Assembly: GCF_003386535.1 (NCBI RefSeq)
Contig: NZ_QTTN01000027.1
Coordinates: forward strand, 24,281 to 88,280
Length of the DNA: 64,000 bases
Reading direction: 5' to 3'
DNA from: Paenibacillus taihuensis
GTDB lineage: Bacteria > Bacillota > Bacilli > Paenibacillales > Paenibacillaceae
Notes under the pieces: model-generated
What the model saw: only the letters and a program-made list of their open reading frames with translations
What the model was told of the DNA's origin: nothing
The model's database searches: none
Shown here: piece by piece, positions 23,255 to 55,579 of the stretch
Numbering within the stretch: position 1 is the stretch's first letter
How the letters are laid out: every line of letters starts with the position of its first letter
Position numbers and translations under genes: made by a program

Positions 23255-23560
23255 CTAGAACATAAATACATAAATACATAAAAACAAAAAGACGAAGCGT
23301 TTTATCCCCCGCGGAATTGCGAACACCATCCGAAAGTCCTGGTTATCGAAATACACCACCTGCTGCAGTGGGAACCGTTCTCTGTCAAACACAAGATGAT
23401 CACCTTTCGTAAGGCGTAGATTCTCGCCTGCTTCGAACGGTCCATATCCCGCAGATCGATTACCCAAGGCCACGTTTAAATGCCTCATTCCTGCTACCAT
23501 GGAATACGTCTTCTCCCACTTAACAACTGCATTTACATCACTTACTTTAAATTGTGCCAT
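23255..23560 (-). pseudogene. glpD internal fragment, frameshifted
   Basis: An ORF of 101 codons contains [20 protein letters not shown] then [20 protein letters not shown]. This aligns with residues TLRLTKGVHLVFDGGRFPL and following of the intact GlpD encoded at 38753-40468. Just upstream, in a different frame, [15 protein letters not shown] matches GlpD PWVDDVREMDQSKEG. A frameshift joins them. The downstream GKTYFGTTD region is missing, replaced by a hydrophobic chance tail. Only about 60 residues of a 560-residue enzyme remain. Confidence 0.8.
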
Positions 23561-38752: not shown

Positions 38753-40468
38753 TTAATGAGTTGCGCTTCCTACAACTGCTCTTACTTCCGAAGCATGCCG
38801 CAGCTCTTCATCAAGCTCAGCGGCATACCCCAATTGCCGCTCCTCACTCCAGCCAAGTCGCTCAGCCATAGCTGCAATGACCCCCCGTTTCCACCGACGA
38901 ACATCTGCGATGCGGAAGAACAAATTACCCGTACGGCGGATGAAGAAGTCGACCGGACGGACGGTCATCTCTGAGTCGATCGCATATCGGAGCTGAATAG
39001 CTAACGACAGCGGCAACCCATGTGCATCTGCCCATGCTTGCGTTTCCTTTGCCAACGCGAATAGATGCTCCGCGTTCGAGCCGTATCTCTCTGCAATGAA
39101 TCGCGCATCGGATTCTGATAGTCCATCTCTAAGCATTCCCAAAGTCGTCTGAACATTGACAAAAGCTTGGAAGTTCGCCGAGCCGCCGACATCGCCGCCT
39201 GAGATCTTCATATCCTGCGTCCGGCTGCTGCCGATTCCCTGTGCTTTGCCCTCACCCTCAGCGCGCATCAGCTCCACCGCTTTGTCTACGACGGTCTCCG
39301 CCATCTTGCGGTAACCGGTTAACTTGCCTCCGGCGATGGAGATCAAACCCGAACGAGAGACGAAGATTTCGTCGCGGCGAGAGATTTCCGAAGGTGATTT
39401 CCCTTCCTGTTGAATGAGCGGGCGAAGTCCCGCCCAGCTCGATTCTACGTCATCGGCGCGGAGTGACAACTCCGGGAACATGAGGTTAACTGCGCGCAGC
39501 AAATAATCGCGATCCTCCTCCGTAACGCGAGGGTTCGCTGTATCGCTAGTATAATTCGTGTCCGTCGTCCCGAAATAAGTCTTACCTTCACGCGGAATCG
39601 CGAATACCATCCGTCCATCCGGCGTATCGAAGTAAATGGCTTGCCGCAGCGGGAAGCGGCCGCCGTCAAACACCAGATGAACGCCTTTGGTCAGCCGAAG
39701 CGTCTTGCCTTCCTTGGATTGATCCATCTCGCGCACATCATCCACCCAAGGTCCGGTTGCATTGACGACCTTCGTTGCGGTTAATTCGTAGTTGCGACCA
39801 CTAACCCGATCATGCACCACTGCGCCAATCAGCTTGCCTTCTTTATCATAACGAAGCGTCTCCACCTTCGCATAATTGACCGCTAATGCACCTTCCGCTG
39901 CCGCCTGCTTCATGACTTCTATCGTGAGGCGGGCGTCGTCCGTCCGATACTCCACATAATAGCCGCCGCCTCTTAAACCCTTTTTCTTCAGGAGCGGTTC
40001 CTTGGCTAAGGTTTCCGCATCGCTAAGCATCTTCCTGCGCTCGCCGCGTTTCACGCCGGCTAGAAAGTCATACACGCGAAGACCGATGCTCGTGGACAAG
40101 GGACCAAACGTACCACCCTTGTACATCGGCAGCAGCATCCATTCCGGCGTTGTTACATGCGGCCCGTTCTCATAAACAATCGCCCGCTCCTTGCCGACCT
40201 CTGCTACGACGCCGATCTCGAACTGCTTCAAGTAGCGCAGCCCGCCGTGAACGAGCTTGGTCGAACGGCTGGACGTTCCCGCCGCGAAATCCTGCATCTC
40301 TACTTGTCCTGTACGCAATCCGCGCGAGGCCGCATCCAATGCGATGCCTGCCCCCGTGATTCCGCCGCCGATAATCAGGAGGTCAAGCGGCTCCTGTTCC
40401 ATCTCTGCAAGCAACGCCGAGCGCGCCTCTGCCGAGAACTCGCGCGTTCTTATTTGTGTTAAACTCAT
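38753..40468 (-). CDS. glpD: Aerobic glycerol-3-phosphate dehydrogenase
   Basis: An FAD-dependent, membrane-associated enzyme oxidising sn-glycerol-3-phosphate to dihydroxyacetone phosphate with electrons passed to quinone. About 571 residues from ATG 40468 (GGAGGGGG upstream). The dinucleotide-binding motif is LLIIGGGITGAGIALDAASR, followed by GTSSRSTKLVHGGLRYLKQF and the DAO domain. The C-terminal DAO_C region includes YAIDSEMTVRPVDFFIRRTG. It follows glpK after 16 bp. Final gene of the GH42 operon: it finishes glycerol catabolism. A decayed fragment of a paralogue lies at 23255-23560. Confidence 0.96.
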   Translation of the reverse strand: MSLTQIRTREFSAEARSALLAEMEQEPLDLLIIGGGITGAGIALDAASRGLRTGQVEMQDFAAGTSSRSTKLVHGGLRYLKQFEIGVVAEVGKERAIVYENGPHVTTPEWMLLPMYKGGTFGPLSTSIGLRVYDFLAGVKRGERRKMLSDAETLAKEPLLKKKGLRGGGYYVEYRTDDARLTIEVMKQAAAEGALAVNYAKVETLRYDKEGKLIGAVVHDRVSGRNYELTATKVVNATGPWVDDVREMDQSKEGKTLRLTKGVHLVFDGGRFPLRQAIYFDTPDGRMVFAIPREGKTYFGTTDTNYTSDTANPRVTEEDRDYLLRAVNLMFPELSLRADDVESSWAGLRPLIQQEGKSPSEISRRDEIFVSRSGLISIAGGKLTGYRKMAETVVDKAVELMRAEGEGKAQGIGSSRTQDMKISGGDVGGSANFQAFVNVQTTLGMLRDGLSESDARFIAERYGSNAEHLFALAKETQAWADAHGLPLSLAIQLRYAIDSEMTVRPVDFFIRRTGNLFFRIADVRRWKRGVIAAMAERLGWSEERQLGYAAELDEELRHASEVRAVVGSATH

Positions 40469-40484
40469 GCTGCAACCCCCTCCG

Positions 40485-43948
<3,464 letters not shown>

Positions 43949-44038
43949 GTTGCTCCACGCTCCTGCCCTGATGTCCTTTTCTCCCAAATCTAAAAAAAAT
44001 AGGCGATATTCATAAACGAATGAAGATCGCCATCCTAT

Positions 44039-44869
44039 TTATTTCACTGCGGAACCAACCGTCAATGCGTTCTCAACCTGCTCGCTAAAGAGCATGTAGA
44101 GCAGCAGCGTAGGCAAGCTGGCAATCGTCATTGCTGCACCCATTGCGCCCCAATCCGTCGTGAACTGCCCTTGGAAGAACAGAAGTCCCAGCGGAAGCGT
44201 CTTGAGCGATTCTTTGGAAATGAGCATCATCGCAATCGGGAACTCGTTCCACGCCGCGAGGAATACGAAGATAATCATCGTCGCGATGGACGGGCGAATG
44301 ATCGGCAGCATAACGCTGAAGAACGTCCGATAGATGGATGCGCCATCGATGCAAGCCGCTTCCTCAAGATCAACCGGAACGCTGCGGAAGAAACCGTAGA
44401 AAACAAGCGTCGCGAAAGAAAGGTTAAACGCGATATAAGGCACAATTAGCGTCAAATACGAGTTAGCCAGATGGAAGTCGCGCATCAGAATCGCGAGCGG
44501 GATCATGATAACCTGAACTGGTACAAACATACCGATCGTCATGTAGATGCGGGCCGCGCCGCTTAGCCGCCACTTCATTCGCGCAACCGCATAGGCGAAC
44601 AAGACTGCGAAGGTGAGGCTGAATATAACCGTAACTACGGATACGATAACGCTGTTCGTAAAATACTGCGGCACATTGAAGCTCGTCCATGCCGTCTTGT
44701 AATTATCGAAACGGAAGTGCGTCGGAAAGCCGAACGGGTTCGTAACGAAGATTTCGTCGTTATTCTTAAGCGAGTACGCGATCATCCAGAATAGCGGATA
44801 GACGGAGAGCAGCGCGTACAGCCAGATGAGGATATTCGAGATGGGATATTTCATTCTTAATGTCTTCAC
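44039..44869 (-). CDS. Carbohydrate ABC transporter permease (MalG type)
   Basis: A 276-residue CUT1 permease with six membrane segments and the EAA loop EEAACIDGASIYRTFF. It starts with GTG, with AAAGGAG 11 bp ahead. It is 18 bp after the first permease stop and 90 bp before the GH42 gene. No ATPase gene is in the locus, so a shared MsmX/MsiK-type ATPase is presumed. Confidence 0.95.
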   Translation of the reverse strand: MKTLRMKYPISNILIWLYALLSVYPLFWMIAYSLKNNDEIFVTNPFGFPTHFRFDNYKTAWTSFNVPQYFTNSVIVSVVTVIFSLTFAVLFAYAVARMKWRLSGAARIYMTIGMFVPVQVIMIPLAILMRDFHLANSYLTLIVPYIAFNLSFATLVFYGFFRSVPVDLEEAACIDGASIYRTFFSVMLPIIRPSIATMIIFVFLAAWNEFPIAMMLISKESLKTLPLGLLFFQGQFTTDWGAMGAAMTIASLPTLLLYMLFSEQVENALTVGSAVK

Positions 44870-44887
44870 GAGTCATCTGCTCCTTTC

Positions 44888-45769
44888 CTAGTAGACAATC
44901 GGATCGCGCGCGATCAGCTTGTTGATGATGAGCGTGACGATCAAGCATTCGATGACAAGGAAGGCTGCAGAAGCGCTGCCGTAACCGAATTCACCGACAC
45001 GGAAAGCCGAACGGAACATCATATAAGTCAGTGTGTAGGTTGTCGTTCCTGGGCCGCCGCTTGTCATAATGTACATGTTCGCGAATGCGTTCAAGCCGCC
45101 CGTGAAGGCCAGGATCAGACAGAATTTGTAGGTCTCCGCGAGCATCGGCATCGTGATACGAAGGTGCGCTTTCATTTTGCTTGCTCCATCGATACGTGCT
45201 GCTTCCATGTAGCTCTCAGGGATCGATTTGACACCGGCAAGCAGCAAGGCGAAGTGGTAACCCATGTACTGCCAAGCATTAACCGCCGCCAGTGCGAAGA
45301 TAGCCGTATGTCGATCAGTCAGCCAGTCTTGACGATAGGATAAGCCGACAGCTTCGAATAGTTTGTTAATGAGACCGTATTCGCCGTTATACATAGCCAG
45401 CCAGAGCTGGCAGACGACCGTAATGGACAATACAACCGGAATGAATACAGTGATACGCACGAACTTGCGACCGCGCATCGCTGCTTCAGAAACAGCGAAT
45501 GCCAGCAGCGTGCCGATCGTAATCTGAACGATGGCAATGATGACCGCAAACACCGCGCTATTGTAGAGCGAGGTGAAGAAGACATGGTCATGGAATAACC
45601 GTTTATAGTTATCCAGGGCAATGAATTTCGCCTCGGACAACCCGTCCCAATCAAACAAGCTCCGATAGAACACTTGAACGACCGGGTAAAATACGACAAC
45701 CGTATATAAGAGAAGGGCCGGCAAGATGAACAGTAGAATTGCCGTCTTATTGCCCAAGTATTTTCGCAT
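44888..45769 (-). CDS. Carbohydrate ABC transporter permease (MalF/UgpA type)
   Basis: A 293-residue CUT1 permease from ATG 45769 (AAGGAAG upstream; the longer frame from 45811 adds an atypical leader). It has six membrane segments and the EAA loop MEAARIDGASKMKAHL. It is the second gene of the operon, separated from the binding protein by a hairpin that probably tunes stoichiometry. Confidence 0.95.
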   Translation of the reverse strand: MRKYLGNKTAILLFILPALLLYTVVVFYPVVQVFYRSLFDWDGLSEAKFIALDNYKRLFHDHVFFTSLYNSAVFAVIIAIVQITIGTLLAFAVSEAAMRGRKFVRITVFIPVVLSITVVCQLWLAMYNGEYGLINKLFEAVGLSYRQDWLTDRHTAIFALAAVNAWQYMGYHFALLLAGVKSIPESYMEAARIDGASKMKAHLRITMPMLAETYKFCLILAFTGGLNAFANMYIMTSGGPGTTTYTLTYMMFRSAFRVGEFGYGSASAAFLVIECLIVTLIINKLIARDPIVY

Positions 45770-45865
45770 GTCGTCACTTCCTTCGCATATTAAGATCTTG
45801 CCTATTTGCATACGAATATCCGCTTGCTTATGTTTACTTGCTGCCAGTTAAGCGCTCATAAAGGA

Positions 45866-45904
45866 GGAAAACTCACACCGTCGTGAAGCCGGCATGAGTT
45901 TTCC
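45866..45904 (-). promoter_or_regulatory. Intra-operon hairpin after binding-protein gene
   Basis: GGAAAACTCA pairs with TGAGTTTTCC (perfect 10 bp, 19-nt loop) between the binding-protein stop and the permease. The same arrangement as at 7337-7378. It may be a stabilising or partially terminating structure. Confidence 0.6.
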
Positions 45905-45935
45905 AATACTACTCACGATTCGTTAAACGCGTCGA

Positions 45936-47285
45936 TTACTTCGACGAAATTGCAGCATCTACATCGCTGACGAAGTCATCCGGCGAGTATCCGCCTGTCA
46001 TCAAGCTTTGCGCAGCATCTTCGATCGCTGCTTTGAATTTCGGATTGCTCAGACCCCATGAGAAGGCAGTCGTCTTCATGCTCGGAATATCCTTGCTCAG
46101 TTGTTCCATAACCGGCGGGAACTTGTTCACGACAGGCGCATCGACCTTCGTCGCTACCATCGGCGTGCCGCGTTGCGTAAACTTGAACTCCGCATATTTC
46201 AAGGAGATGAATGCTGCTACTTTCGCCGCCAGCTCAGGGTCCTTCGTTTGCGGGTTAACTGCATAGCCGCCAGGGCCGCCGCCGCCGCTGAAAGTCAGCT
46301 TCGAGCTTTCGTATGCCGCTGCATCCGCCGCCGGCACGTACATGTAGCCGAGCTTTTCGCCAAGCGCTTTCGTCGAAGCGTCGATTTCCCATTGGCCATT
46401 CAGGAACATCGCTGCTTTGCCTTCGTGGAACAGCGCCGCTGCTTGGTCGTAGTTCAAGTTCGTTGCGCCTTTTGGCAGCATGCCTGCTTTAACCAATTTC
46501 ACGATTTCTTCCGCAGCTGTTTTGTACTCAGGATCGCTTGCTTTCGCCTCGCCCTTGTCCAACTTCGTGATACCCGCTGGATCGTTACGGGATGCGAACA
46601 TGTCGTACAGCGCAACCGTTGGCCATTTTTCTTTTGCAAACAATGCAAGCGGCGTAATGCCCTTCGCATTGAACGCATTTACAGCAGCCATCATTTCATC
46701 GTACGTTGTCGGTACTTTGACGTTATTCGCTGCGAACAGCTCTTTGTTATAGAACAGCATCGCGACTTCGTTGCCCGCGTAAGGGAACGCGTAGATGTGA
46801 CCATCATCCGTCACAAGCGTATTCATTGCGCTTGGCTGAATCTTCGCTTTGAAGTCGTCTGCGTATTTATCAAGTTCAAGGATGTTGCCCGATTTCTTAA
46901 ACGTGCTGATGATATCAAGTCCTGCTTGGAAAATATCCGGAAGATTGCCTGTAGCCGCATACGTCTTCAGCTTCTGGCCATCATCCTGTGCTTGCACATC
47001 CAGCTCCAGCTCTACGTTCGGCATTGCTTTCTTAAGCTCTGCAACCGCATAGTCGTAAGGGCCTTTCGTATCTTCGTCTGCGTATTGCGCATAGATCCGA
47101 AGCTTAACCGACTCTGTGCTGCTCGAGTTCGTTGAATCTCCAGCGTTAGCAGCTGCCGCGTTGTTGCCTGCCGCTTGGTTACCTGTGTTTGCTGAATTCT
47201 GCTCTTTATTGTCGTTGCTGGATCCACATGCTGCCAGACCCATCACCATTGTTGCTGAAATGAGCGCTAGCGTCCATTTTCTCAT
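45936..47285 (-). CDS. Extracellular sugar-binding lipoprotein
   Basis: A 449-residue family-1 solute-binding lipoprotein. The signal peptide ends in GLAAC with Cys20 lipidated, followed by an Asn/Ala/Ser-rich spacer. It captures the substrate for the two permeases downstream. GGGGAGG precedes the ATG. It is first gene of the transporter-GH42-glpK-glpD operon and lies 98 bp after the response-regulator gene. A promoter with a good -10 and poor -35 is visible at 47331-47359, which fits activation by that regulator. The ligand is predicted to be a beta-galactosyl-glycerol or a related beta-galactoside. Confidence 0.95.
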   Translation of the reverse strand: MRKWTLALISATMVMGLAACGSSNDNKEQNSANTGNQAAGNNAAAANAGDSTNSSSTESVKLRIYAQYADEDTKGPYDYAVAELKKAMPNVELELDVQAQDDGQKLKTYAATGNLPDIFQAGLDIISTFKKSGNILELDKYADDFKAKIQPSAMNTLVTDDGHIYAFPYAGNEVAMLFYNKELFAANNVKVPTTYDEMMAAVNAFNAKGITPLALFAKEKWPTVALYDMFASRNDPAGITKLDKGEAKASDPEYKTAAEEIVKLVKAGMLPKGATNLNYDQAAALFHEGKAAMFLNGQWEIDASTKALGEKLGYMYVPAADAAAYESSKLTFSGGGGPGGYAVNPQTKDPELAAKVAAFISLKYAEFKFTQRGTPMVATKVDAPVVNKFPPVMEQLSKDIPSMKTTAFSWGLSNPKFKAAIEDAAQSLMTGGYSPDDFVSDVDAAISSK

Positions 47286-47330
47286 GGTGAATGACCTCCC
47301 CTTGTGCTGTTGGTGTGCTTTACGTTCCTC

Positions 47331-47359
47331 ATTATAAAATGCATCCCGCGTCCCGATAA
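47331..47359 (-). promoter_or_regulatory. Activator-dependent type promoter of transporter operon
   Basis: On the minus strand TTATCG, 17 bp, TATAAT. The -10 is perfect and the -35 matches only three of six positions. This is what is expected for a promoter that needs the AraC-type response regulator encoded just upstream. Confidence 0.55.
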
Positions 47360-47383
47360 TGGAAAAAACGATGGCGTTTTGTA

Positions 47384-49024
47384 CTATCCGCGCATCGTTT
47401 CGTTTGTTTTGATGTGATTTTCGTACTCGCTAGGCGACCAGCCGAAGAATTTCTTGAAGCTTTTGCTGAAATAACTGCCATCGCTGTAGCCGATCGCTTC
47501 CGCTATATCGGCCAGCTTGCGGTTCCCCTCACCGAGCAGCTCTTTGGCCCGATTCATTCGGATATGCGTTATATAGTCCGTAACGGTCATGCCCATCTCT
47601 TTCTTGAATACAGCCCGCAAATAACTGGCGTTAATGTACGACTGCTGCGCCACAAGATCGACGCCCAGGTCAGGGTCACTGTACCGCTCTTCGATGAAGG
47701 CTTTCGCGGATTGCGCAATGATTGAGGATCTTGTTTTCTTGTAGCGCCGCGCATACTGCACCGCTTTGGCGAACAAGGCTTTCATCCAGGTTTCCACCTC
47801 GTCGATGGACGTTAGGCTGCGGATTTCTTTGTAAGGGAAGAAATGCTCGCCGAAGCAATCCTCGATCGGATGCCCTGCTTCCGTCACGTAACCAAGACAG
47901 ATGGATACGAGACTCATACAGATAACATAAGTGTAGTCAATAGACAGCTTCTGCTCCCGGATATGCTGGAACAGCTCGCTTAGCTTCGCATTCATGCGCT
48001 CGTCATCCTGAGCCCGCAGCAACAGCTGAAGCTCATCGCCAAGCTCTGGCGGATATTGAGCACCGCCCGATCCGGCAGCCGACATCTGTTCCCCGTAGGC
48101 AATGACTCGGTCGCTGCCAAGCACGAACTTGTTCTGAAGCGCAGTCAGCGACTCGTAGTAAGAGCTGCGGATTCCTGTTACGCTTCTGTCATAGATACCC
48201 CCAACGCCAATGGTGATGGAGAAATGCAAGTAACGTTTAATGAGCATGCACAGCTTCTCGAACGGTTCCAGTCGAGGTAAAGCGCTCGCTCCCGCATCCA
48301 CGGCTTTGACACCCGTATCAGACATACCGTAGAGACAGATAATTCTGCCCTCTGGCCCGTTAAAGATGATCGGCTCGCCTCCGGATTCCTCCATCGCCTC
48401 TGTCAGGATGTTCGTGACCGCGTATTTCCAAAGCAATCGTTCGCTGACCTCGCTCCACTTGCGGTTCATATCATCGATCTCAATGACTGCCACCGCATAG
48501 ACCGGAGCATCAAGGGTCAGCTGGTAGGAGGCGAGCAGCTCGCGTAATCCTTCGTTCCGCTCCGTCAGCTCCCCATTCACCAGTCGCAACAGCACGCTCT
48601 CCCGCATGAGCTGCAGATGATGCTGCAGCGTGGACTGCTCCTCTCGCTGTTTCAAGTGCTCCTCCTGCAGCTTCAGCATCGTGAGCATCAGCTCGTCCTT
48701 GGAGAACGGTTTTAAGATATAGTCCTCGACGCCAATCTTCAGTGCACGACGCGCATAATCAAATTCATTATGGCCCGTTATTAGCACAATACTGATGTCC
48801 GGGTATAGCTTCTTGAGACGATCTGCCAGCTCCAAGCCATCCATAAACGGCATCGTAATATCTAGCAAAGCGATGTCCGGAGGCGCAGCCTTAGCGAGCT
48901 CCAGCGCCTCTTCTCCGTTCTTGGCCTCGCCGCAAATGCGAAAGCCATACAGCTCCCAATCTAGTGCCGTTCGAAGGTATTCGCGAAACATCCATTCGTC
49001 GTCTGCAATTAATACTTGAAGCAT
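47384..49024 (-). CDS. AraC-type two-component response regulator
   Basis: About 546 residues from ATG 49024 (AAGGAG 9 bp upstream). The receiver domain (1-120) has Asp8/Asp9 (LIADDEWM), phospho-acceptor Asp55 (IALLDITMPFMDG) and the conserved Lys in ILKPF. A central region of about 300 residues is typical of the YesN-like class. The C-terminal AraC HTH pair has VDLVAQQSYINASYLRAVFK and IAEAIGYSDGSYFSKSFKKF. It begins one base after the histidine kinase stop (TGATATG). It is expected to activate the adjacent sugar transporter operon. Confidence 0.95.
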   Translation of the reverse strand: MLQVLIADDEWMFREYLRTALDWELYGFRICGEAKNGEEALELAKAAPPDIALLDITMPFMDGLELADRLKKLYPDISIVLITGHNEFDYARRALKIGVEDYILKPFSKDELMLTMLKLQEEHLKQREEQSTLQHHLQLMRESVLLRLVNGELTERNEGLRELLASYQLTLDAPVYAVAVIEIDDMNRKWSEVSERLLWKYAVTNILTEAMEESGGEPIIFNGPEGRIICLYGMSDTGVKAVDAGASALPRLEPFEKLCMLIKRYLHFSITIGVGGIYDRSVTGIRSSYYESLTALQNKFVLGSDRVIAYGEQMSAAGSGGAQYPPELGDELQLLLRAQDDERMNAKLSELFQHIREQKLSIDYTYVICMSLVSICLGYVTEAGHPIEDCFGEHFFPYKEIRSLTSIDEVETWMKALFAKAVQYARRYKKTRSSIIAQSAKAFIEERYSDPDLGVDLVAQQSYINASYLRAVFKKEMGMTVTDYITHIRMNRAKELLGEGNRKLADIAEAIGYSDGSYFSKSFKKFFGWSPSEYENHIKTNETMRG

Positions 49025-49025
49025 A

Positions 49026-50963
49026 TCATTCGACTCCTTCTCGTTTCTCACTTCGTCCCTCCGTAACCCGGGCAGGATCGGGCTCGTTCAGCATGCCGCC
49101 GAACGCAAGGGGGAGTCGCACGAAAATCTCCGTGCCTGCTCCAAGCTCGCTATTGATGGTTAATCCATATTCTTCGCCAAAATAAAGCTTAATTCGGCTG
49201 TCCACACTTCGCAGTCCGAATGAGCTGCCTGAGTTTCCAGCCGCAGATACCGCGCCTATATGAGCTTCTTCATCAAGCCCTCCTGGCTTAAGCAGCAGCG
49301 GCAGCCGTTCAGGAGGGATTCCAACACCGTCGTCTCGTACGCGAAGCTCCAGATAGTCGCCTTCTCTGCATCCGCTCACCCACAGATGTCCGAAGCTTCC
49401 CTTCGTCTTGAGCCCGTGATAAATCGCATTCTCGACAAGCGGCTGCAGCGTCAGCTTAAGCACGGTACAGCTCATGACATCCGGCTGAACGTCAATCTGA
49501 TAATCGAAAATATCCGCATAGCGAAGCCGCTGAATGCCGAGATAATCCCGCAGTCCCTGAAGCTCGTCCTGCAGAACAATTGCCTCACGCCCCTTACTCA
49601 GGACGATACGGTAATAATCGGCGAGTGACTTGGTTGTGCGCTGCACATCCTTAACCCGGCCAAACTCCGCCAAGGTGTAGATGACATCAAGCGTGTTATA
49701 TAGAAAGTGCGGCTTAATCTGGGATTGAATGAGAGCCAGTTCATATTCGCGTTTCTTCTTCTGTTCAAACCGTACATTGTCGAGCAATTGATTGATACGC
49801 GCGATCATCGTATTGAAACCGGAAGCGAGCAGCCCAAGCTCATCATTGGTCCGAACCGGAAGGCGGAGGCTTAGGTTTCCTTCTTTCACGAGCTTCATAT
49901 TCTTGGTTAGCAATACGATCGGTCTTGCGATCAGCCTGTTTAGAATGCCCGCACCCATCAGCGCGAACAAGAAACATAACAAGCCGATGAAGGCGATCAG
50001 CATCGTAATCTTGCGGCTATCCTCGGTTAGCTTCGTGTAAGGCTCCATGGAGATCATCTTCCATCCGAACTTATCCATCTCTGAGCTAACCACCAGCTGT
50101 TTGCTGCTCTGAAAACGGCCAATAACGGATTGATCCTTCGCCGTTTGCACCCAATCCCGAAGAACCGTATCTTCAATCGGCTTCAGCAGCTTTGTCGCGT
50201 CCGGCGTCGAAACCACCATCCCAGAAGGATCCGTAAGCATGTAGCTGCCTTGCTCACCAGTGCCGATCTTGCCGAAGATGGAGGACAGCGCACTTTCTTT
50301 GATATTAAGGACAAGCCGCCCAAGCTCTTGACCAGTATTAATATTGTTGATGCGTTTGCCAAGGGACAGAACAGGAGCAGCACCATTCACAGTGAGATAT
50401 GACCTTCGTTCCATCGGAAACCAAATATTCTGGCCGCTTGTTTGTTCAATCTGGCGAATGATCGGCGTTTGCAGCACCACCTCGGGTGATAAGCTCGCTT
50501 CAATGTTCGCGGACGTTCCGTATATATTGCCATTATTATCAATGAATGCGGCACTCTCAACGTCCGGGAAAACAAGCAGCGCGAAGCTGAGCTGGTTCGT
50601 AATGAGCGTCGACAACTGCAAGCTCCGTTCGCCGTTCAACTCGCCGTTATGGTTGTCTTGAATCACGCGATTGAGGTTGATCGTCAAACTGTTTGCGCAG
50701 CTCTCCGCATTCTTGAGCATCCCATTAATACGTGTGATGATGAGCGATGAATTGTCCGTTACATTGCTGATCGTCTTGTCTACGATCGCATTCGAATAAA
50801 TTCGATTCGAAGCAAAGCCGAGCACGAGCAGCGGCACGATAATGAGCGGAATATATATGGCGATGATTTTGTTGCGAATCACTTGATTGCGCAGCCAATA
50901 GGGGTACAGCCATTCGAGGATCACAGGTGCAGCGCCGTCCTTCCAGCCTAGGTTAGGACTCAT
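49026..50963 (-). CDS. LytS/YesM-type sensor histidine kinase
   Basis: A 645-residue membrane sensor. Two membrane helices (about 33-53 and 325-347) flank an extracellular dCache-like ligand domain. The second helix leads into HAMP (IARPIVLLTKNMKLVKEGNL) and the His_kinase domain with the phosphorylated His near residue 419 (QSQIKPHFLYNTLDVIY). HATPase motifs follow (PLVENAIYHGLK, DDGVGIPPE, GLRSVDSRIKLYFG). It partners the response regulator downstream. Such pairs in Paenibacillus usually sense oligosaccharides outside the cell, here presumably the substrate of the transporter. Confidence 0.94.
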   Translation of the reverse strand: MSPNLGWKDGAAPVILEWLYPYWLRNQVIRNKIIAIYIPLIIVPLLVLGFASNRIYSNAIVDKTISNVTDNSSLIITRINGMLKNAESCANSLTINLNRVIQDNHNGELNGERSLQLSTLITNQLSFALLVFPDVESAAFIDNNGNIYGTSANIEASLSPEVVLQTPIIRQIEQTSGQNIWFPMERRSYLTVNGAAPVLSLGKRINNINTGQELGRLVLNIKESALSSIFGKIGTGEQGSYMLTDPSGMVVSTPDATKLLKPIEDTVLRDWVQTAKDQSVIGRFQSSKQLVVSSEMDKFGWKMISMEPYTKLTEDSRKITMLIAFIGLLCFLFALMGAGILNRLIARPIVLLTKNMKLVKEGNLSLRLPVRTNDELGLLASGFNTMIARINQLLDNVRFEQKKKREYELALIQSQIKPHFLYNTLDVIYTLAEFGRVKDVQRTTKSLADYYRIVLSKGREAIVLQDELQGLRDYLGIQRLRYADIFDYQIDVQPDVMSCTVLKLTLQPLVENAIYHGLKTKGSFGHLWVSGCREGDYLELRVRDDGVGIPPERLPLLLKPGGLDEEAHIGAVSAAGNSGSSFGLRSVDSRIKLYFGEEYGLTINSELGAGTEIFVRLPLAFGGMLNEPDPARVTEGRSEKREGVE

Positions 50964-50969
50964 TATAGC

Positions 50970-51007
50970 AAAAAAAACCGTCCCGCACCTACTGGGGTAC
51001 GGGACGG
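50970..51007 (-). terminator. Strong terminator upstream of the kinase gene
   Basis: CCGTCCCG pairs with CGGGACGG around a 14-nt loop, and on the minus strand eight T follow (50970-50977). It isolates the two-component operon from the decayed genes upstream. Confidence 0.85.
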
Positions 51008-51031
51008 CCTTATATGACGTATAAGACGCAA

Positions 51032-51425: not shown

Positions 51426-51850
51426 TTATTGCTGTGTAAACGTCCACAATTGTTCGTCTGAAACGAGAGACGGCTGCGTCGCTGCTGCTACGTAATAAGC
51501 TCCCGAAATCCCCATATACGTGGGCCGCCCGTATTGTGAAGCAGCATTCCCCACTTCTTGTTGATCAGCTTATAATAGCCATTACCTGCACTCGTGATCT
51601 GCCAGAGCTGATCGTTCAGATTCCAAGACACTGGCGTTGATGCCTCATAGTAAACGTTGCTAATGCCGTTATAACTGTCACCGGTATTGTGCAAGGCGTT
51701 GCTTGAATATGACTTAGGCGTCGGAGAACGTACTATAGGTATCCCCAGGTATTCTGCAGGACCGTTCCCCATTGCTTGTTAATATAACGCGTGAACGCAC
51801 CCATCATCCAATAGTTCGCCATGTAAGCATAGCTGTTAACCTGCCCAATA
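51426..51850 (-). pseudogene. Remnant of secreted protein with ricin-like lectin domain
   Basis: Minus-strand pieces: QVNSYAYMANYWMMGAFTRY then INKQWGTVLQNT; after a frameshift SNVYYEASTPVSWNLNDQLW then QITSAGNGYYKLINKKWG and MLLHNTGG; after another shift TYMGISGAYYVAAATQPSLV then SDEQLWTFTQQ and TAA. The QLWxI/QLWTF repeats with YYKLINKKWG are the beta-trefoil (RICIN/CBM13-like) pattern at the C-terminus of secreted carbohydrate-active enzymes. The 5' part is missing at the junction with tniQ. Confidence 0.65.
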
Positions 51851-52519
51851 TGATACCACTCGATCTTTGATAATCTTTTCTTCACCCCATAATTGCCATG
51901 GTGGTGAGTCTATGCTCTCACAAATGCGATAACCGCATCTACATACATAGCCTGAATTACTCATTAAACTATAACTAATATAGTCTTTGCATTCAGGACA
52001 TTTTTCGACTAGATTGATTTGATGAAATGGACATTCATGTATAAGTAGGAATTGCGTTAAGATACTATGGTAATTCCTAGACATACATTCTTGGCAGTAC
52101 GAAAAATGCGACTTGAAGCCGGTAGTCTTACCCAACTCTTTCCAATGTATTGGGTTGTTGAGTAAGGAGCTCAACCTTTCTACTAAATCAATGTTTACTT
52201 GCAGATCTATATTAGTAAATTGTTTAAACTTAGCCTTATCAATGCCGTACAAGTATAATGGACAACGGTGCTTCTGGTTTTGAGTAATGAATTGTAATCG
52301 TGCTACTCGCTCAATACCGAAAGCTTTGAAGAAAGCAGAGTTGTCGAATGCATTTGCACACTTTATTTTCTCGAAAATGGGCCATGCTGATTCGTATTTG
52401 CTGACCCATGTTTCATCCCAACAAATCACTAGCAACACACCTAATCCTACTCTTATATTTTGATAGATTATTAAAACGAATAGTCGGTATTCAAGTTGAC
52501 CGTTGAAGTAAAAAGGCAA
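51836..52519 (-). CDS. tniQ: TniQ/TnsD-family target-selection protein, short
   Basis: About 205-227 residues. The diagnostic opening of this family in Bacillota, WVSKYESAWPIFEKIKCANA, is present. Zinc-finger Cys/His sets follow: CQECMSRNYH, HECPFHQINLVEKCPEC and VCRCGYRIC. The start is uncertain: the first 25 residues do not look like TniQ, and a GTG or TTG nearer to WDETWV is possible. The protein ends SYWAG at the junction with unrelated sequence, so it may have lost the C-terminal target-recognition region found in longer TnsD proteins. It begins 33 bp after the tnsC stop. Confidence 0.8.
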   Translation of the reverse strand: MPFYFNGQLEYRLFVLIIYQNIRVGLGVLLVICWDETWVSKYESAWPIFEKIKCANAFDNSAFFKAFGIERVARLQFITQNQKHRCPLYLYGIDKAKFKQFTNIDLQVNIDLVERLSSLLNNPIHWKELGKTTGFKSHFSYCQECMSRNYHSILTQFLLIHECPFHQINLVEKCPECKDYISYSLMSNSGYVCRCGYRICESIDSPPWQLWGEEKIIKDRVVSYWAG

Positions 52520-52551
52520 CCGTCTCTACAAAAACAGCTACCTTACAATCA

Positions 52552-53547
52552 TTATTCTAACTTTGAAACATTAAAAGAAACCTCCGAATCAACATATCCT
52601 GCCTTCTTCACGCACTCGACCCACGTAGCAAGATCAATCCAATGATTTTTCTTTTTCGACTCAGCGCCATATTTGGCAAGTGCGTACTTTATGGTAGTAG
52701 TTAGATCTTGCATTCCTACCTCCATCTTCCCTCCAAACCCCCTCTCCTGTCTCACAAGAGCAAAAGCTTCAAAGAGATCATTTGCACAATGTTCAAGTCT
52801 CTTCCCTTCCGCATACGCTTCAGGATAATAATATCTTGTATATGACCATCCGCTTCCTTCAGGATATTCAATCGTATCGTAGCCTTTAAGGCAAACCTGG
52901 AAATCTGTCACAGTTTTTGCTCCAAACAACTCATGCTCGTTAATCATAAATCTACCTACGATATGATTCATCCCTTGTGTCACAAATGATGATTTAGTTA
53001 ATTTAAGCTCCGGCTGACCAACCAATAGAATAATTAACTTAATCTGAAAGGCGTTTAAGTAATTATATAAATCAATCAGCCATTTATAGTGTTGCTCGAG
53101 CAATGCCTGAGCCTCATCCATAAACATAACTATTTGCTTATATTTTGACTTCTCGCCTTTCTCGAGTAGAAATTTTGCTAACCGATCGAATTTATGATTC
53201 TTCTTTCCAGCGTATGGGAATGCATGACCGACCCACAGTAGTAGCCACTCATAGAACACCTCCTCGTTAGCCGTGAATTTATGTTTAGCTGGGATAACGA
53301 AGATGGGTAGCTCATCTCCATATCGCAGAGTCAGTTTTTTCTCGATGTATTTTATAGCTTGTGTCTTACCTCGTCTCTGACGTCCAAATATGATCCCCCC
53401 AGGGGATCTATCCTCTATCCATTCATCTACCTTCCTATATAATCTCATTATCTCATTCGTCGGTACCAAATACTTGTCTTGTATCAGTTGATGTGTACCT
53501 TCCGGTATTGAGGGCCTTTCGGCCTCTCTCACTTGTCCCATACTCAT
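52552..53547 (-). CDS. tnsC: Tn7-like transposition regulator ATPase TnsC
   Basis: A 331-residue AAA+ ATPase. Walker A is GRQRRGKT (residues 55-62), Walker B is IVMFMDEAQAL (Asp143/Glu144), and LIILLVGQPEL holds sensor 1. It bridges the target selector (TniQ) and the TnsAB transposase and enforces target immunity. The stop of tnsB lies 17 bp upstream. The C-terminal tail would contact TnsAB. The sequence looks intact. Confidence 0.92.
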   Translation of the reverse strand: MSMGQVREAERPSIPEGTHQLIQDKYLVPTNEIMRLYRKVDEWIEDRSPGGIIFGRQRRGKTQAIKYIEKKLTLRYGDELPIFVIPAKHKFTANEEVFYEWLLLWVGHAFPYAGKKNHKFDRLAKFLLEKGEKSKYKQIVMFMDEAQALLEQHYKWLIDLYNYLNAFQIKLIILLVGQPELKLTKSSFVTQGMNHIVGRFMINEHELFGAKTVTDFQVCLKGYDTIEYPEGSGWSYTRYYYPEAYAEGKRLEHCANDLFEAFALVRQERGFGGKMEVGMQDLTTTIKYALAKYGAESKKKNHWIDLATWVECVKKAGYVDSEVSFNVSKLE

Positions 53548-53563
53548 TTAAATCCCACTTTTC

Positions 53564-55579
53564 CTAAAACGATATTGGCTTGAAGAAATCCTCCCAGCCA
53601 TCTTCAAGCGTTTCGTTATTATTTACTTGCACTATTACAGTATGCTCAAAAATAATAGTGTTTATAGGGTCTCTTTCCGCAATCACTTCATCAACGCAAT
53701 ATTCTGTATCAACTACTTCTTCATTTTCATCTGTATATTCTTCTGAAAATTTTTCTTGCTCTACTAGTGCCTGTGATTGTTGATATCTTATCTCATGCAC
53801 CAAACGATTTTTGTCGCCTTTGTTTTTACTACTTGCGAGATATTCTGAAAGGGCATGTACATAGTCATCACTCTTTAAGAAAAAGTCTCGCTTTTCACTT
53901 CTTATAAAATTATTAATTAACTTTCTGGTCTCAAGTGAGTGAGGGGCTTTCGACCACTTACCAACTACCCTAAGTGTTCCCAACTCGTTTCCGTTTGGCA
54001 AGAAAGCTCTAAGGAAACGAATGTCCATTAAGTTAATATAGATTGTTAGTTTCTGACGGATAAGCCCTGCACTTTGTGAGAGGACATCGTTCCTATATTG
54101 TGCTCCTTCGTAGTTAATGTAAGGCCTCCGTCCTTTCTCCAGATTCCCCTGAACAGTAACAGTCTGACTCACAATCAAGAGTCCCAGTTCTTTACGCCGA
54201 TACTCCGGTAAGATTCTTGGTAGAAATCCTCCTTCAATCTTATCGCGCATTGCTTTAAGTGGACTCAAACCCGAGTTACCGCTGTGTGGCTCACAATTGT
54301 ACTGTGCTAACATTGCCTCTGTTAATTCCTCTAGATGTTCAATGTTAATTTCTTGTTGCAATGCCTTCAGTTCAGCCTTTTTTCTCTTAGGATCGTTCGG
54401 ATTGCTACCTGTCGTTGAAGGTAGTAAGTGATATCCGTTTACTTCAAGAGTCCGAAAGAACCTCTCTATGAGTCCCCTTCGAAGAGGAGACGCTACAGGC
54501 CCTGCATTAACGAAACAACCTACTGTCTTCGTTAGTTTATCTACCACATTCTTCGCTAAATTCGCTTTAGCGTTGTCCATCCAAAACTCTCTCCAAACAG
54601 CCCACTGAGTTTCAGGGATACTTATCGATGGAAAAGAACCTTCAGATGGATATTGCAAACCTTTAATGGTAAATTTCATGGGCTCATGTGGATGTATCGC
54701 ATTTTGAATGCATTGCAGCACATCCATCTGCGAATATTCAGGCTTAACACATAACAAGTGTCCTAGAACCGAATTTGTAGGAGCATCTATAATAGCAAGC
54801 AACCAAATTCTTTTTAAAACTTTCTTTACTACGTTCCCATTAGGATCTGTGTATCGAATTGTTAGCATCAAATCGATCTTATGTGCATCAAAAATAACTT
54901 TTGAGAAGGGTCTAAAGTTTGTAGCGTAATTTTTTTCCCCTCTGCCTACGGTTTTTGCCATCATTGCTGCAATTTCCCCGAACACATGCTCATTCCCGAA
55001 ATGTCTCTCTTTTAAATCTTTTACATACCTCTCAAGAGAACGCCTTCCTTTGTCAGCTGTATTTCTCGGATATTGATTGGGCTTTATACCAAGTTCTTTA
55101 CACTTTGTATCAAATTGCTTAAGAATGTACTTTACTGAATGCGTCGCTTTTGAAGCTCCATTCCCCGTTCCTAATGCCTTATCGTGAATCAATTTCCTTA
55201 ACTCCGGGAAAGTCAACAACAAGAGATCAAAGGCACCTGCAAAATTAGCTGCATTTGCTTTAGGTAAATCGTTTCGCTCATAGATTTTCACGTGAAGGCC
55301 TGGGTTTAAGGCTCTAAACCCCAAAATCTGATTATTCACATCTACTAAAAAACAACGGTCAACATAACGAGAAATCTCCTTTTTATCGATCCCCGTTGCT
55401 TCTGAAATTTCTCTAACGGTCGCACTATCCCGAAGGTACATCTCAACAGCCGTTTTTCTTGCTTGATATTTATCACAATCTGCTTCATCCCAGCCAGTAG
55501 TATCAACGATTGGCCACTCTGCTAGGTTAAGCAATTCTGGGTCTATCCCCAACTTTTCAAATTTGCTCTTTCTTCTCAT
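53564..55579 (-). CDS. tnsB: Tn7-like DDE transposase TnsB
   Basis: A 671-residue transposase that binds the element ends and cleaves the 3' strands. An N-terminal HTH (SATVREISEATGIDKKEISR) precedes the integrase core. The catalytic triad is approximately Asp233 (IFDAHKIDLMLTIRYT), Asp334 (EFWMDNAKANLAKN) and Glu371 (RRGLIERFFRTLE). The Mu-type beta-barrel (Mu-transpos_C) follows around 490-560. The acidic C-terminal tail (EDGWEDFFKPISF) would bind TnsC. Its start overlaps tnsA by 23 bp. Confidence 0.93.
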   Translation of the reverse strand: MRRKSKFEKLGIDPELLNLAEWPIVDTTGWDEADCDKYQARKTAVEMYLRDSATVREISEATGIDKKEISRYVDRCFLVDVNNQILGFRALNPGLHVKIYERNDLPKANAANFAGAFDLLLLTFPELRKLIHDKALGTGNGASKATHSVKYILKQFDTKCKELGIKPNQYPRNTADKGRRSLERYVKDLKERHFGNEHVFGEIAAMMAKTVGRGEKNYATNFRPFSKVIFDAHKIDLMLTIRYTDPNGNVVKKVLKRIWLLAIIDAPTNSVLGHLLCVKPEYSQMDVLQCIQNAIHPHEPMKFTIKGLQYPSEGSFPSISIPETQWAVWREFWMDNAKANLAKNVVDKLTKTVGCFVNAGPVASPLRRGLIERFFRTLEVNGYHLLPSTTGSNPNDPKRKKAELKALQQEINIEHLEELTEAMLAQYNCEPHSGNSGLSPLKAMRDKIEGGFLPRILPEYRRKELGLLIVSQTVTVQGNLEKGRRPYINYEGAQYRNDVLSQSAGLIRQKLTIYINLMDIRFLRAFLPNGNELGTLRVVGKWSKAPHSLETRKLINNFIRSEKRDFFLKSDDYVHALSEYLASSKNKGDKNRLVHEIRYQQSQALVEQEKFSEEYTDENEEVVDTEYCVDEVIAERDPINTIIFEHTVIVQVNNNETLEDGWEDFFKPISF

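Follow-up and report, generated by a model that had tools for sequence, protein, structure and literature searches.

A predicted beta-galactosyl-glycerol operon of Paenibacillus taihuensis linking an unusual GH42 beta-galactosidase to glpK and glpD

Gene content and layout of the unit

The 64,000-nucleotide stretch of Paenibacillus taihuensis DNA analysed here (the window; contig NZ_QTTN01000027.1, positions 24,281 to 88,280, from a 6.79-Mb genome) contains eight open reading frames (ORFs) that run on the minus strand from position 50963 to 38753. They encode, in this order, a histidine kinase, a response regulator, the substrate-binding lipoprotein and two permeases of a CUT1 importer, a beta-galactosidase of glycoside hydrolase family 42 (GH42), the glycerol kinase GlpK and the glycerol-3-phosphate dehydrogenase/oxidase family protein GlpD. 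This content had been proposed in an original prediction made from the letters of the window, and the ORF list together with Pfam and NCBIfam profile searches bears it out (Table 1). We assign a probability of about 0.6 to the reading that these genes are a catabolic operon that would import beta-galactosyl-glycerol, cleave it with the GH42 enzyme and lead the glycerol through GlpK and GlpD to glycolysis.

Table 1. Genes and putative signals of the unit, with positions in the window
Feature	Position	Strand	Basis
Sensor histidine kinase, dCache-HAMP-His_kinase	49026..50963	-	Pfam; relatives 82-83%; likely start GTG 50924
Response regulator, receiver and AraC-type DNA-binding domain	47384..49051	-	Pfam; relatives 82-88%
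Substrate-binding lipoprotein of CUT1 importer	45936..47285	-	SBP_bac_1; 87-94% in type A relatives
Permease 1	44888..45811	-	BPD_transp_1
Permease 2	44039..44869	-	BPD_transp_1
GH42 beta-galactosidase, distinct clade	41972..43987	-	Pfam, active-site table, tree; likely start 43948
Glycerol kinase GlpK	40485..41975	-	TIGR01311; overlaps GH42 by ATGA
Glycerol-3-phosphate dehydrogenase/oxidase family protein GlpD	38753..40546	-	DAO and DAO_C; likely start 40468
Terminator-like hairpin with U run, 5' border of unit	50974..51011	-	Consensus scan, 16 pairs
-10-like box TGCTATAAT before histidine kinase	50962..50967	-	Similar box in G077 and G168 (by eye)
-10-like box TTTTATAAT before lipoprotein	47331..47336	-	3/3 type A loci
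Terminator-like hairpin and U run between permease 2 and GH42	43992..44031	-	Fold of gap, -16.4 kcal/mol

The GH42 product contains both the catalytic domain (PF02449, 403 bits) and the trimerisation domain (PF08532, 153 bits) of its family, and GlpK scores 692 bits against the TIGR01311 equivalog cut-off of 590. GlpD has the DAO and DAO_C domains and falls below the NCBIfam equivalog cut-offs for the type 1 oxidase (579.5 against 840) and for the dehydrogenase PRK12266 (313.5 against 360). No importer ATPase gene lies within the unit and, as had been claimed, neither does a galactose kinase gene; the sole galK match of the genome is on contig C3, beside galE and galT. The genome also holds a second glpD-glpK pair on contig C24 (L077:7267-10713), in reverse order and with a GlpK whose lineage is distant from that of the linked GlpK, as well as one MIP channel match on contig C13.

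The predicted ATGA overlap of the GH42 gene with glpK is present at 41972-41975. By eye it occurs in the window only, among the three loci that share this gene order (type A: the window, G077 and G168; G, L and C numbers denote genomes, loci and contigs). The likely glpD start follows glpK by 16 nt. The start given for the GH42 gene is probable because the MYLGVDYYP beginning that it yields matches relatives, and the GTG is preferred for the histidine kinase because the listed ATG (50963) sits within the TGCTATAAT box.

The hairpin at the 5' border comes from a consensus scan whose 14 terminator-like sites compare with an expectation of 12.5 for the region, so that the scan is weak taken alone; both -10-like boxes are missing from the scan's list. 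The box before the lipoprotein gene is likely to be the regulated promoter. The second hairpin, before the GH42 gene, occurs in G077 and not in G168, and is not listed by the scan. Only 43 nt separate it from the likely GH42 start, which leaves little room for a separate GH42 promoter; it may be a partial terminator that, by limited read-through, would lower enzyme expression relative to the importer. The argument that the genes form one unit is weakened by this hairpin, and the -10-like boxes before the kinase and lipoprotein genes qualify it as well. A scan for cre-like sites gave nothing beyond chance (8 found, 5.8 expected).

Just upstream of the unit, at 51836-55579 on the minus strand, three genes look like a module for Tn7-type transposition; one of them, an AAA ATPase (52552-53547), matches PF13401, and the other two have no Pfam match. 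Elsewhere in the window, a 45-residue stretch (23294-23428, minus strand) is 67% identical to residues 280-324 of the unit's GlpD and is perhaps a remnant.

Recurrence and history of the linkage

The GH42 gene was followed through genomes of the family (E 1e-100), order (1e-180), class (1e-200) and phylum (1e-130); the draws were even and overlapping, and the counts given refer to loci examined. Of 295 family genomes, 123 contain a GH42 within the E 1e-100 limit and 11 an orthologue (63-100% identity), the next GH42s listed being at most 40% identical. The order-wide draw (7/392 genomes) added two orthologue loci, in two other families. Among the 13 Paenibacillales loci with an orthologous GH42, glpK lies in the cluster in nine (broken in G014) and glpD in 11. 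GlpD was found at none of 28 control loci of other GH42s, and neither was a GlpK of at least 50% identity; two of the 28 have distant FGGY-kinase matches, 27 and 35% identical. These controls (29-38% identity, about 9 kb on each side) comprise 27 loci picked by hand from the family list and the window genome's other GH42. Recurrence of GH42 beside glpK, which the original prediction had named among its checks, was thereby observed, and the arrangement is more than a chance one.

The linkage takes several forms. Type B loci (G031, G137, G117, G063, G014 and G307) have a different CUT1 importer followed by GH42, LacI, GlpP, GlpK and GlpD, with GlpP assigned by PF04309 in G031 and by similarity in the remainder; type B' (G291, G043) reads importer-GH42-LacI-GlpD, and G016 and G341 have importer-GH42-LacI only. 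The permeases of types A and B share 25-34% identity, and the GH42-glpK-glpD core survives the exchange of importer and regulator. Outside the cassette nothing is common to three or more of the 13 loci at 45% identity except reverse-strand ORFs over cassette genes, and flanks are shared only by the close pair G291/G043. A fourteenth locus, found in G066 via glpK, has a type B cassette in which the GH42 gene is an internally deleted remnant (L133:7293-7622).

Some features of single loci were also seen. In G014, glpK and glpD (L066:3824-7178) are split by frame changes, through decay or sequencing error, and were excluded from the trees. After the glpD of one type A locus a 1757-residue protein with S-layer homology domains is encoded (L026:15734-21007). 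By eye, a similar gene (MHDLTV...) recurs in three genomes, where it precedes glpP (G113, L135:6458-7792), the glpK locus (G129, L136:5456-6787) and the entire GH42 cassette (G066, L133:11572-12903); this shared neighbour suggests that the cassette was gained or lost at a single site. Neither GlpP nor a GlpP-type leader was seen in G129.

The GlpK tree has 36 rows, namely 35 of 42 GlpK matches and that of G307; the other seven matches are either additional unlinked copies (a second or third in the genome) or the single copy of G001. All nine linked rows, including that of G066, fall into one clade of 14 (support 100/98) with five unlinked rows nested inside, a pattern that would fit one gain and two losses of linkage. 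At E 1e-120, two GlpK matches each are found in G000, G077, G168 and G117, two unlinked ones in G291 and again in G043, one unlinked in G016 and none in G014.

Control of the glycerol genes differs between the types. Seven aligned type B and B' loci have, upstream of glpD, a TGCTATAAT-like box, a stretch AAGTT(A/C)ATA...CGGT(T/C)GGAGA and a terminator hairpin. For 10 of the 23 pairs in the fold there is a sequence that retains the pair despite changes on both sides, with an unfavourable covariation term (+1.69). This leader is taken to be a target of GlpP, by analogy with the B. subtilis arrangement described in PMC9604022. The derived model, R1, matches the seven training loci, held-out copies before glpD in G307 and G066 (L101 and L133) and several unlinked glpPKD operons; the leader therefore belongs to the family's glpPKD operons in general. 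A GlpP-type leader was accordingly rejected as a mark of GH42 linkage, and only its absence from type A is informative. R1 has no match up to E 1 in the window, L058 or L059, the second glp pair of the genome is likewise without a leader, and GlpP (PF04309) has no match in the window genome; a degenerate trace of the leader is visible by eye in G168. In the GH42 tree the type A rows fall within type B, and the type A lineage appears to have dropped LacI, GlpP and the leader, which would have placed the genes under the two-component system. A refutation considered from the outset, that glpK and glpD are merely neighbours with separate promoters, holds for the glpD of the relatives and not for the window, where glpK overlaps the GH42 gene, glpD follows after 16 nt and no leader is found.

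Two further marks were discarded. The missing glycerol facilitator had been used as an argument for the substrate. A MIP match lies within about 1.5 kb of only 2/25 unlinked glpK loci of the family (the query being the window genome's own MIP protein, so that distant GlpFs could be missed), and absence of glpF was rejected as evidence. Loss of one GlpK histidine, which we take to be the residue phosphorylated by the phosphotransferase system, was rejected as a mark of a dedicated kinase; inspection by eye shows it missing also from the second GlpK of the genome and from the further linked copies compared.

The GH42 active site and related loci outside the order

With residues numbered from 43987, the catalytic pair E155 and E318 is present in 16/16 clade members and 28/28 controls. 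Equivalents of the galactose contacts N154, R116 and E366 (O2/O3/O4) are kept in the 16 members, D282 in 15 of them, and Y284 and F356 are also retained. What sets the clade apart is H326 together with C369, found in 25/25 members (at least 46% identity; seven of the 25 readings are from motif strings), H326 occurring in 0/34 others. In BiBga42A, as described in PMC10688820, Trp-326 and His-369 bind the galactose O6, Trp-326 also stacks on the sugar in subsite +1, and the W326A change lowers kcat on natural substrates 100- to 600-fold; its residue numbers were matched to ours by equal spacing and not by alignment to its sequence. By alignment, the A4 beta-galactosidase has Trp and His at the two equivalent positions. 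This Trp/His pair of the structure-determined GH42s is absent from the window enzyme; it is not required for membership of GH42, and bears instead on which substrates are used.

The 28 controls have Trp (5), Cys (10), Gly (6), Ala (4), Thr (2) or Asn (1) at position 326, and 27 of them have Trp at 369, the last one having it at 326. The H326 clade is the only group seen without Trp at 326, 327 or 369; two sequences, from G655 and G649, combine C369 with W326. A +1 site devoid of Trp would fit a small, non-ring (non-sugar) aglycone.

Outside the order, 12 loci from eight genera have an H326 GH42; they comprise orthologues in other Bacilli from the phylum draw (9/398, E 1e-130) and the class draw (10/398, E 1e-200), together with two Anaerosolibacter loci and one Christensenellaceae locus. 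In 11 of the 12 the cluster includes galK, usually with galE and galT, as compared to 0/14 Paenibacillales loci, whereas glpK and glpD are absent from all 12. In 10 of the 11 galK-bearing clusters there is also a LacI related to that of type B. One lineage thus carries the galactose branch and the other the glycerol branch, and the GH42 tree separates gal-linked from glp-linked rows at a 97/95 branch, with two glp-less loci among the latter. This tree leaves out L179-L185, includes three rows flagged for unlike letter make-up and carries a long-branch warning for rows that include G649, the Christensenellaceae row and G745.

A type B-like CUT1 importer is present in seven of the 12 outside loci (four genera), and all seven also encode a GH36 alpha-galactosidase, assigned by Pfam at two loci and by similarity at the other five. 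Three of these clusters, all of one genus, have GH35 in addition, and the more distant relative G655 has a similar importer with GH36. Three other loci (two genera) have MglB and MglA instead, which exceed their NCBIfam cut-offs in the single locus tested, L024, and none of these three has GH36. Of the remaining two loci, one is on a contig that ends too early to show its type, and the other, of Christensenellaceae, lacks both importer and GH36. The Mgl system of E. coli transports glyceryl-galactoside. The pairing of CUT1 with GH36 would fit alpha-Gal-beta-Gal-glycerol as a substrate, and MglBA would fit beta-Gal-glycerol.

Comparisons of the lipoproteins indicated no ligand. The GanS equivalog gave 55.5 of the required 700 bits for the window lipoprotein and 50.7 for the type B lipoprotein tested. 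Relatives of the former in the PDB (best 60 of 425) carry names that point to binding of chitin oligosaccharides, xylan-type ligands and maltodextrins, and those of the latter include proteins that bind cellobiose, acarbose/maltose or galacto-N-biose.

Proposed function, alternatives and known systems

In the proposed pathway the two-component system would sense galactosyl-glycerol, or a related galactoside, outside the cell and activate the promoter before the lipoprotein gene. The CUT1 importer, presumably energised by a shared ATPase encoded elsewhere, would take up the glycoside, and the unusual GH42 would cleave it inside the cell to galactose and glycerol. Galactose could then enter the pathway encoded by galKET on contig C3, and glycerol would pass through GlpK and GlpD to dihydroxyacetone phosphate. 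Galactosyl-glycerol, the substrate originally proposed, is plausible. It is now better supported because the linkage is conserved, the aglycone subsite lacks the sugar-stacking Trp and the sister operons carry the galactose pathway, even though the arguments from glpF and from a single unit did not hold.

Several observations weigh against this assignment. Lack of the +1 Trp is also seen elsewhere, since among the 28 controls only five have Trp at 326 and 12 more at the next residue; moreover C369 and also H326 alter the O6 pocket, so that the glycone itself may be modified, for example a 6-substituted galactose. The linkage may go back to one historical event, in which case 9/13 and 11/13 are not independent counts; in G016 and G341 the cassette includes no glp genes, the close pair G291 and G043 retains glpD only, and the GlpD tree is less clean than that of GlpK (five changes, four of them forced). 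Three genomes (G031, G137, G063) show no glpK besides the linked one (E 1e-120), which must therefore serve free glycerol as well. Absence of glpF is usual at the family's glpK loci, a terminator-like hairpin separates the importer from the enzyme genes, and G649, outside the H326 clade, pairs a similar importer (type B-like CUT1) with GH4 and lacks GH36.

One alternative explanation, which we consider unlikely, is an ordinary beta-galactoside operon (for lactose, galactobiose or plant galactan fragments) situated upstream of a usual glpPKD with no metabolic link. It draws on the commonness of glpPKD in the family, usually with no visible glpF, on the relatives' glpD, which has a promoter box of its own and a GlpP-type leader, and on the sufficiency of a single gain of linkage in the GlpK tree. 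In G017 (L139:3905-13300) glpPKD directly follows an unrelated two-component/CUT1/GH8 cassette, and such adjacency can therefore be coincidence. Against it, the window unit has lost GlpP, leader and spacing, and its glpK overlaps the GH42 gene despite a second glpDK pair in the genome; the linkage persists over genera and two families with other flanks, and the sugar-stacking Trp is replaced in all clade members seen.

Import of digalactosyl-glycerol (alpha-Gal-1,6-beta-Gal-glycerol, the head group of digalactosyl-diacylglycerol) is less probable still. The smaller O6 residues could admit a 6-O-galactosyl group, both O6-binding residues of BiBga42A being changed in the clade, or a GH36 elsewhere could trim the substrate first; the window genome has five PF02065 matches, the best 55% identical to an outside-order GH36, and GH36 accompanies the type B-like CUT1 importer in 7/7 outside loci. 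However, the window importer is of another type, GH36 is found in 0/14 Paenibacillales clusters, and the three outside clusters with GH35 may serve the use of galactosides more broadly. A different beta-glycosyl-glycerol (for instance beta-glucosyl-glycerol) would suit the glpK/glpD linkage equally and is very improbable, as the equivalents reading the axial O4 (R116, E366) are kept in 16/16 members and sister operons carry galactose-pathway genes.

Beyond the predicted galactosyl-glycerol operon of the window, a wider scheme can be drawn, the chances of which we judge evenly balanced. A GH42 clade specialised for galactosyl-glycerols would anchor a modular system for galactolipid head groups, joined to galKET in other Bacilli and Clostridia (often with GH36, for digalactosyl-glycerol) and to glpPKD in Paenibacillales, the window lineage having left GlpP control for a two-component operon; this would be a dedicated realisation of an idea of Egel from 1979, described below.

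The unit is best read as a new variant of sugar operon. The original prediction knew of no described operon with this composition, and a full-text literature search, with subscription papers mostly outside its coverage, likewise showed none, nor one dedicated to the galactosyl-glycerol head group. Galactan operons of the ganSPQA type combine a CUT1 importer with GH42, as the window does; unlike them, it has no GanS-level match and no galactanase in the unit, and includes glycerol genes. The clostridial and Bacilli galactoside operons (L024, L025, L159, L160, L179-L185) have a GH42 of the same clade with galactose genes and no glycerol genes. The glpFK and glpD operons of B. subtilis, under GlpP antitermination according to PMC9604022, share glpK and glpD with the window, and its relatives keep GlpP and the leader terminator before glpD; in contrast, the window genome has no GlpP match and no such leader at either glp pair, and the glp genes of the unit follow GH42.

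The E. coli lac operon uses a GH2 enzyme and LacY and has no glycerol genes, whereas the window unit has a CUT1 importer, GH42 and the glpK-glpD pair. Common to both are beta-galactoside uptake, intracellular hydrolysis and the same proposed natural substrate, Egel (1979) having proposed, as cited in PMC8333865 and PMC11896792, that the lac operon serves galactosyl-glycerols from galactolipids. The latter are main components of chloroplast membranes, according to PMC8333865. The unit opens this old proposal on beta-galactosidases to a test for which a single enzyme, a single binding protein and a deletion would suffice, and H326 with C369 could mark such galactosyl-glycerol enzymes elsewhere.

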